A DNA stretch of 64,000 bases from Verrucomicrobiia bacterium (lineage in GTDB: Bacteria; Verrucomicrobiota; Verrucomicrobiia; Verrucomicrobiales; Akkermansiaceae): NCBI GenBank assembly GCA_030432565.1, contig JAUIGV010000006.1, positions 1 through 64,000 of the forward strand. The letters run 5' to 3'. The notes under the pieces were generated by a model. It was not told the DNA's origin and ran no database searches. It saw only the letters and a program-made list of their open reading frames with translations. Within the stretch, counting starts at the first letter, position 1; each line of letters begins with the position of its first letter. The position numbers and the translations under genes are program-made. Below, piece after piece: positions 46,590 through 47,648 of this stretch.

Positions 46590-47648
46590 TTACTCGCCTT
46601 CCATCTCTTTTAGAAGAGTATCGACAGCCTCGTCCATAGCCTTGCCACGAGTGTTCTTGTAGCGAATCACGCCTTTGGCATCGATGACGTAAATTGTGGG
46701 CCAACCTCGAACAGCCCATGCCTTGGCGATGGGTCCACCGGTTTTTCCTCCGTCCCAGAATGAGGGCCAGGTGATGTTGTTTTCTTTGATGGCCTTCTTG
46801 TATTTTTCAGCGGGGTCGCTGTTGACACCGAGAATGGTGAAGGGCTTGTCTTTCAATCTCTCAACGAGCGACCGCTCGTGAGGATACATGGCGCGGCAGG
46901 GACCTCACCAATCACCCCAGAAATCAAGGACAACGATCTTGCCCTTGTAATCCGAGAGTTTCATTTCATTCCCGTCAACATCCTTACCGATGATTTCGGG
47001 AGCTGGTTTCCCAATTGCCAATTTTTCTTTTGCTTCAACGGTGGCCTTCATCATTGCTGCAACCTTTCGGCCTCTGACTTCGAGGTCGGCATGTTCGGAG
47101 TTCAGTTTTTCGACAATGGCCTTGTATTCTTCGGCTTTTGCCGGATCGCGTTCCATCTGCATTGCCTGAACGTAGAGGGCGGAACCTTGGGCTTCCTTTA
47201 CTTCGCTCTTTTCAACTACGTTTGCAAGAAAGGCCCGGGCTTCTTCGCTGTTGGCACTGTAGAGCGAAAGGACGACTGTGGAGAGTTCGCTACTATCAAG
47301 ATGGTGTTCTTCAAGAGCTGCAAACATCTCCGGCGACAAAGCCTGCCCCCGGCTACGGCCTGACATCCAGGAGATGGCCTTGAGGCTCGCTTCGTCAGCG
47401 GGGTTTTTTCTCACGATGGCAGAGAGTGCATCGATGGTGTCCTTGGGTTGCGGATATCCTTTTTGGTAGGCCTCCCGCTGTTGCTCCCGGGGGAGGGCGC
47501 GGACCTCCTCCATGAATTTGGCAACCGCAGCATCCTGGGTTGCGATGAGTTCGCTGATTTGGTCAGCGACTTTGTTTTTGGTGTCGGTTTGTGCCACCGT
47601 GAGCCCGGCGGCGGCAACCAACATTACGAGTAATGTTTTTGCCTTCAT
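46590..47648 (-). CDS. TlpA-like thioredoxin, probable selenoprotein (UGA at residue 248)
   Basis: 352 residues if the TGA at 46907..46905 is read as selenocysteine. A signal peptide (MKAKTLLVMLVAAAGLTVAQ) and a helical region (about 20-210) lead to a TlpA/thioredoxin domain (about 215-352). Its active site reads FWGDW-U-GPCRAMYPHE, so Sec248 and Cys251 replace the usual WCxxC. A cis-Pro (RGWPTIYVID) lies in its proper place. The reading frame is continuous across the UGA and both halves have full TlpA homology. A hairpin with a GGTC loop follows 22 bases downstream. Read naively it gives a truncated 247-residue protein and a separate 99-residue fragment (46590..46889). It is probably periplasmic and redox-active. 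A nonsense mutation cannot be excluded. Confidence 0.85.
46860..46882 (-). promoter_or_regulatory. Candidate bacterial SECIS hairpin
   Basis: On the minus strand, starting 22 bases after the UGA, CTCA-CGAGC pairs with GCTCG-TTGAG (one unpaired T on the 3' side), with apical loop GGTC. A GG(T/U)-containing loop on a short stem with a bulged U at the base, at this distance from the UGA, is the general form of known SelB-binding SECIS elements. It lies within the coding sequence, as bacterial SECIS elements do. Not tested by folding software. Confidence 0.65.

Follow-up and report, generated by a model that had tools for sequence, protein, structure and literature searches.

We found that a gene in the window, the 64,000-nucleotide stretch of DNA analyzed here, very probably encodes an exported selenoprotein, a thiol-disulfide oxidoreductase with a Sec-Gly-Pro-Cys active site whose in-frame UGA would be decoded via a hairpin recognized by SelB. 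The computed basis for this assignment consists of a recurrent TGA, homologues with Cys at the same place, the presence of the selenocysteine machinery, a SECIS-like hairpin and the constraint upon it, all of which strongly support the sequence-only reading of a TGA at the catalytic Cys as a selenocysteine codon, together with the fold.

The gene (Table 1) has 352 codons, translating to 247 residues, a single in-frame TGA as codon 248, and 104 further residues before a TAA. The TGA lies within VVLDFWGDW-TGA-GPCRAMYPHERSLV, at the position that the first catalytic Cys of W-C-G-P-C occupies in homologues. With the TGA read as a residue, Pfam AhpC-TSA (PF00578; 90 bits, cut-off 26) and Redoxin (PF08534; 73.6 bits, cut-off 26.6) both matched across it, while a plain ORF listing returned two pieces of 247 and 99 amino acids, as had been predicted for simple gene callers. 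A terminator-like hairpin of 14 pairs followed by a T-tract lies directly 3′ of the TAA, and a terminator scan of the region found no such site after the TGA on the same strand (six sites on both strands of the region, versus 3.0 in shuffles). Scanning the whole window yielded neither a tRNA nor an Rfam match above gathering score. Next to the gene lie a divergent helicase-like gene and other neighbors without evident link to it (identities by eye), and the genomic context gives no functional hint.

Table 1. Features of the predicted selenoprotein gene, in window coordinates.
Feature	Position	Strand	Basis
Whole gene, 352 residues with predicted Sec 248, then TAA	46590..47648	-	Translation, Pfam, relatives
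Codon 248, an in-frame TGA predicted to encode selenocysteine (U of U-G-P-C)	46905..46907	-	Sequence, alignment
TGC, resolving Cys 251 of UxxC	46896..46898	-	Sequence; column invariant in alignment A1
SECIS-like hairpin, GGTC loop, 7 stem positions	46863..46880	-	Model fit, folding, covariation
12-nt core GAGCGGTCGCTC, near-invariant in TGA rows	46866..46877	-	Row comparison, pattern searches
Signal-peptide-like N-terminus, ~residues 1-19	47592..47648	-	By eye; similar starts in many relatives; low pLDDT
N-terminal all-helical domain, ~residues 25-208	47025..47576	-	Predicted structure, fold searches
C-terminal TlpA/ResA-like thioredoxin domain, residues 210-352	46593..47021	-	Pfam, predicted structure, fold matches
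Pro 317, presumably the cis-Pro position of thioredoxins	46698..46700	-	Invariant in alignment A1
Intrinsic-terminator-like hairpin and T-tract after TAA	46534..46565	-	Terminator scan

Relatives of the window protein were compared as 121 aligned rows, from which 10 without recognizable motif were dropped and near-duplicates removed. Among the resulting 94 distinct motif rows, 83 carry TGA and 11 carry TGC or TGT at the site, and the TGA rows reduce to 73 with distinct 63-mers; choosing rows by their closeness to the window protein leaves Cys forms under-represented, and these counts give no family-wide U:C ratio. The dropped rows, which were not counted as TGA genomes, include four weaker matches in which the aligned frame contains a TGA but no recognizable motif (L047, L121, L123, L124), as well as the planctomycete L132. 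The sequence-only reading had proposed looking for Cys at position 248 in homologues, and it is indeed found there, in the 11 rows and in a protein annotated as TlpA family on plasmid pPL62-2 of Planctomyces sp. SH-PL62 (WP_197491325.1), which has a similar thioredoxin domain (45.3% identity over query residues 174-351) but, unlike the window gene, has Cys at the site (WCGPC) and lacks the hairpin core. The invariant columns of alignment A1 include Trp 247, position 248 (Sec or Cys), Cys 251 and Pro 317.

Downstream of the TGA, we observed a hairpin that conforms to the bSECIS model. This model, given in the review PMC13188914, calls for a loop of 3-9 nt, a stem of 4-16 bp, a distance of 16-37 nt from the UGA, a G in the first two loop positions, and an MFE at or below -7.5. 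In the window gene, a GGTC loop begins 31 nt 3′ of the TGA on the stem ACGAGC/GCTCGT, with a perfect hairpin of -7.9 kcal/mol; six of the seven stem positions pair, and the outermost sets a C opposite a T. The 12-nt core was exact in 68 of the 83 TGA rows and in none of the 11 Cys rows. The residues encoded there, E-R-S-L (258-261), could be written with 2, 6, 6 and 6 codons, respectively, and their synonymous entropy lay 24 (E), 28 (R), 34 (S) and 14 (L) standard deviations below resamplings from each gene's own codon usage, whereas the z-scores of the other columns tested went no lower than -7.8. All 75 rows that keep Ser at the core use TCG for it. This Ser looks imposed by the RNA, because, among the 11 Cys rows, seven carry K, A, E or V after E-R at the same place, and the remaining four lack both E and R.

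Folding and covariation pointed in the same direction. Hairpins that fit the model at -7.5 kcal/mol or lower occurred in 58 of the 73 distinct TGA rows versus 1 of the 11 Cys rows, and in a mean of 7% of synonymous resamplings of the distinct TGA rows; when the window gene itself was resampled 2000 times, 1.8% of the outcomes folded equally well. The hairpin was absent in 15 of the 73 rows at this threshold, and in 7 of the 73 at -5. Two-sided changes were seen at four of the seven pairs (mean of 1.3 in shuffles, as high in 1 of 500), and 89% of cells paired in the proposed helix, versus 16-41% when the helix was slid; at shifts of +2 and +3 columns, two-sided changes appeared at 3 and 4 pairs, with 36-39% of cells paired. 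Among the departures from the core, which are rare, are compensatory changes: a G-C pair becomes A-U via Glu to Lys and a synonymous Leu change in L112, and with Leu to Phe in L135 and L143, while U-A replaces C-G in the stem of L115. The 37-nt hairpin stretch with flanks folded modestly better than shuffles (-13.2, z -2.09, 9 of 200 as good), a 60-nt stretch folded no better (z -0.38, 57 of 200 as good), and RNAalifold over all 73 rows returned only three pairs. The GGTC loop was absent in 8 of the 83 TGA rows, namely in L101, L105, L120, L136 (three copies), L137 (one of two) and L142; the SECIS of these relatives, if any, must differ and may be another hairpin.

The genome that holds the window (5.93 Mb, 82 contigs, 97% complete) contains the machinery for selenocysteine, as the sequence-only reading had suggested checking. 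One tRNA-Sec scored above the Rfam gathering score (54.4 bits; gathering 47) and was confirmed by ARAGORN with anticodon tca, that is, tRNA-Sec(UCA), whereas 11 weaker matches all fell under the gathering score. SelA (489.1 bits, cut-off 267.9), SelB (315.6 bits, cut-off 242.25) and SelD (386.7 bits, cut-off 125) were all present. Across the 145 genomes of the family, SelA was found in 22 of the 24 TGA carriers versus 43 of the 121 others (Fisher p 2.5e-7). SelD of the window's genome (L018, G000:C73:16415-17344) is predicted to be a selenoprotein as well, with a single in-frame TGA within its SCGGU motif; as the hairpin after this TGA differs from that of the window gene, the core is not common to every selenoprotein gene of the genome.

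Among the alternatives, the one that fares best is a reassigned or suppressed UGA, read as Trp by near-cognate decoding or as Cys on a tRNA with a UCA anticodon. In its favor, and against the selenocysteine reading, are three TGA-bearing genomes in which SelA was not found, namely G109 and G110 (86% and 83% complete) and G497, a planctomycete assembly of unstated completeness with three TGA-bearing copies (L066, L095), where either incompleteness or another route may be at play. Nevertheless, we consider it improbable: homologues have Cys rather than Trp at the site, SelA, SelB and SelD are present, SelD contains a TGA of its own, and a reassigned codon would have no need of a SECIS-like hairpin.

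The coding sequence beyond the TGA bears on a second alternative. Comparing the window gene with L023, L024, L025 and L052, we obtained dN of 0.04-0.06 and dS of 0.86-0.97 after the TGA, and dN of 0.14-0.16 and dS of 1.13-1.35 before it; for the near-identical L022, the values were dN 0.004 and dS 0.09 after, and dN 0.019 and dS 0.07 before. Hence, in these five pairwise comparisons, the codons 3′ of the TGA are under stronger purifying selection than those 5′ of it. Such selection is at odds with a true stop or nonsense mutation, by which the gene would be a pseudogene or subject to a regulated truncation yielding the helical domain alone, an idea that draws on the two fragments of the plain ORF list and on the N-terminal part being a confident folding unit when predicted alone. 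With the same TGA in two phyla, the terminator-like site sitting after the TAA, Cys in homologues, and synonymous constraint at the hairpin also speaking against it, we regard a true stop as highly improbable, and selenocysteine as the far better reading of the codon.

We found the TGA to recur widely. By eye, the match list for the 145 genomes of the same family (Akkermansiaceae) contained a close relative with TGA in 24, and a second, more distant TGA-bearing copy in ten. In a sample of 387 genomes from the phylum, five passed E 1e-32, namely the window's genome, which has the TGA, and four others that have Cys in its place. Of 392 Planctomycetota genomes, 94 passed the same threshold, many with two or more copies; among the matches listed, six rows had no stop, two had two TGA, and the others had one. 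A genome-collection scan, whose loci partly repeat genomes of the family scan, returned 25 loci, with 17 (L051-L067) at E 1e-58 or better; 16 of these 17 show the TGA, and the sequence of L067 ends before its position. Where a group was named, these loci belonged to Verrucomicrobiota or its families, except for the planctomycete L066. An error of sequencing or assembly for TGC or TGT, named as a possible refutation by the sequence-only reading, can be given next to no weight: TGA is one base away from a Cys codon and the window comes from an assembly, but the same TGA stands in separately assembled genomes of two phyla, in other assemblies at 54-97% protein identity as well as in planctomycetes. 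Two in-frame TGA each were found by genome search in L131 (G836:C22) and L132 (G842:C80).

In a tree of 92 thioredoxin domains (quick method, two short rows left out), the window clade comprised 17 verrucomicrobial rows with a support of 99, placed among planctomycete rows. The phylum label needs six changes on this tree, of which at least two are forced by well-supported branches, while 41 of the 86 inner branches stay open and long branches come together. The tree favors transfer between phyla, which may have gone either way. The Sec/Cys state likewise needs six changes, with the Cys rows mostly on long branches.

The hairpin and the TGA could be retrieved together as plain DNA. In the 392 Planctomycetota genomes, TGA-N27-GAGCGGTCGCTC was found 112 times, spread over 72 genomes, versus 8 times for the reversed control; upon recounting, the 112 comprised 104 with Cys at +3 (UxxC), four with a second TGA at +3 (UxxU), and four that were neither or unrelated. 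In the family, the same pattern matched 31 times in 24 of the 145 genomes (control 2), with 30 matches in Sec-TlpA genes and one unrelated (G013), as classed by eye. Viral contigs yielded 25 stretches with the pattern, none in a TlpA-like frame, and a single 18-residue match in a protein-profile scan. The 12-mer core alone is unspecific, with two occurrences in the window's genome versus four for the reversed control; its second site in this genome (G000:C64:181804, L145) shows neither a TlpA context nor a TGA at the distance seen in the window gene. The four UxxU loci, all planctomycete (L212-L215; G606:C37:59381, G802:C32:346, G561:C54:24884 and G816:C678:3221), have a TlpA-like domain surrounding the site in frame and the identical hairpin core at identical spacing, and are apparent double-selenocysteine forms. 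Furthermore, L080:1-2121 (G625:C42) joins two Sec-TlpA modules within a single open frame, with a TGA and a hairpin core in either module, and appears to be a tandem double selenoprotein.

The predicted structure of the window protein, obtained by AlphaFold with an alignment of 49 relatives, had a mean pLDDT of 92.5. Residues 210-352 matched ResA, DsbE and TlpA-like structures (Z 20.4-21.0, rmsd 1.6-2.2, 133-142 aligned in the best eight rows), in agreement with a sequence-profile match at E 9e-29; ResA 2h1b_C showed the same fold as this C-terminal domain at Z 20.7, rmsd 1.6 and 133 aligned residues. Residues 22-211, predicted alone, formed a confident helical domain (pLDDT 96.1). In the four proteins scanned, all Pfam matches that exceeded their cut-off lay in the thioredoxin part, and Foldseek gave none for the N-terminal domain at E 0.001 or better. 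The best VIA match of this domain was AP2 (Z 9.6, rmsd 3.6 over 157), in a range common for helical repeats. The helical domain, as modeled, thus appears to have no convincing solved relative in these fold searches, which does not by itself show a new fold. The N-terminus resembles a Sec-type signal peptide by eye, likewise in many relatives, and from this resemblance we infer a periplasmic location for the exported protein.

We propose that SelB recognizes the mRNA hairpin, with its GGUC loop 31 nt 3′ of UGA 248, and would there deliver tRNA-Sec such that the UGA is read as selenocysteine. As the hairpin sits within the coding sequence, it would dictate the residues E-R-S-L. ResA/TlpA proteins are periplasmic dithiol oxidoreductases, and the same role is therefore suggested for the window protein. 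In the ResA/TlpA-like domain, Sec 248 would attack or hold a disulfide that Cys 251 resolves, and the helical domain of the mature protein would probably bind a partner or substrate. Having Sec as the attacking residue should give a faster, lower-potential catalyst. More broadly, we lean, with some reserve, towards an unnamed family of exported two-domain Sec-TlpA proteins that is major in Planctomycetota and marine Akkermansiaceae, that was passed between phyla with a near-unchanging SECIS cassette fixing E-R-S-L, and whose members multiplied inside single genomes, underwent tandem fusion (L080), and advanced to the double-Sec UxxU.

For comparison with known systems, we take cd02966 to be the TlpA-like domain class. 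ResA, TlpA and DsbE/CcmG have a CxxC-type site and the invariant Pro 317 position in common with the window protein, which differs from them by Sec in place of the first Cys and by its extra helical N-terminal domain. It stayed under the NCBIfam cut-offs for ResA (NF002854, 88.1 vs 170), TlpA (NF047696, 62.4 vs 230) and DsbE (TIGR00385, 46.8 vs 123.15), and no listed NCBIfam model reached its cut-off for the window protein or the five relatives tested. TlpA-like UxxC selenoproteins are already catalogued: within PMC13188914, Table 1 gives a cd02966 UxxC group, a "UGC-containing TlpA" and a "Redoxin family protein" (PF08534, UxxC). The second of these and the ResA-like WAxxUGC motif protein of NF041054 are also bacterial ResA/TlpA-like selenoproteins, but have the motif UGC versus UGPC in the window protein, which reaches 39.8 bits with NF041054, far under the cut-off of 300; the third, as listed, shares the Redoxin domain and UxxC. 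The first, the "thiol-disulfide isomerase-like protein" from the Sargasso Sea (cd02966), four metagenomic sequences in the 2005 tables of PMC1088965, likewise has Sec first in UxxC in a TlpA-like class, an agreement known by class and motif only. The window family may include this group, as compared by description only; "planctomycet" and "verrucomicrobi" are absent from the portion of PMC1088965 available as text. For its part, PMC4807772 reports selenoproteins in two planctomycetes, and its section on them does not name a TlpA-like UxxC type. We recognized no description of the two-domain family, its spread or its near-invariant SECIS in the open-access literature, although table S9 of PMC4807772, on planctomycete candidates, may list members. 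The earlier suggestion of an undescribed protein therefore does not hold for the TlpA-like UxxC type, given the entries in PMC13188914 cited above, and holds for the two-domain architecture, its spread and its SECIS, which we did not find described.

Because plain ORF calling splits such genes at the TGA, many Sec redox proteins may be mis-annotated in planctomycete and verrucomicrobial genomes. The near-invariance and fixed spacing of the 12-nt core make it a sharp signature for a bacterial SECIS; along with the TGA, it can be searched as plain DNA, and it presents a case in which an RNA signal writes part of a conserved protein sequence, with the departures from the core offering a natural variant series with compensatory changes. 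One relative outside alignment A1, L044 (G072:C1:2661636-2662403), reads U-G-P-S, with the resolving Cys changed to Ser and both the TGA and the hairpin core kept.
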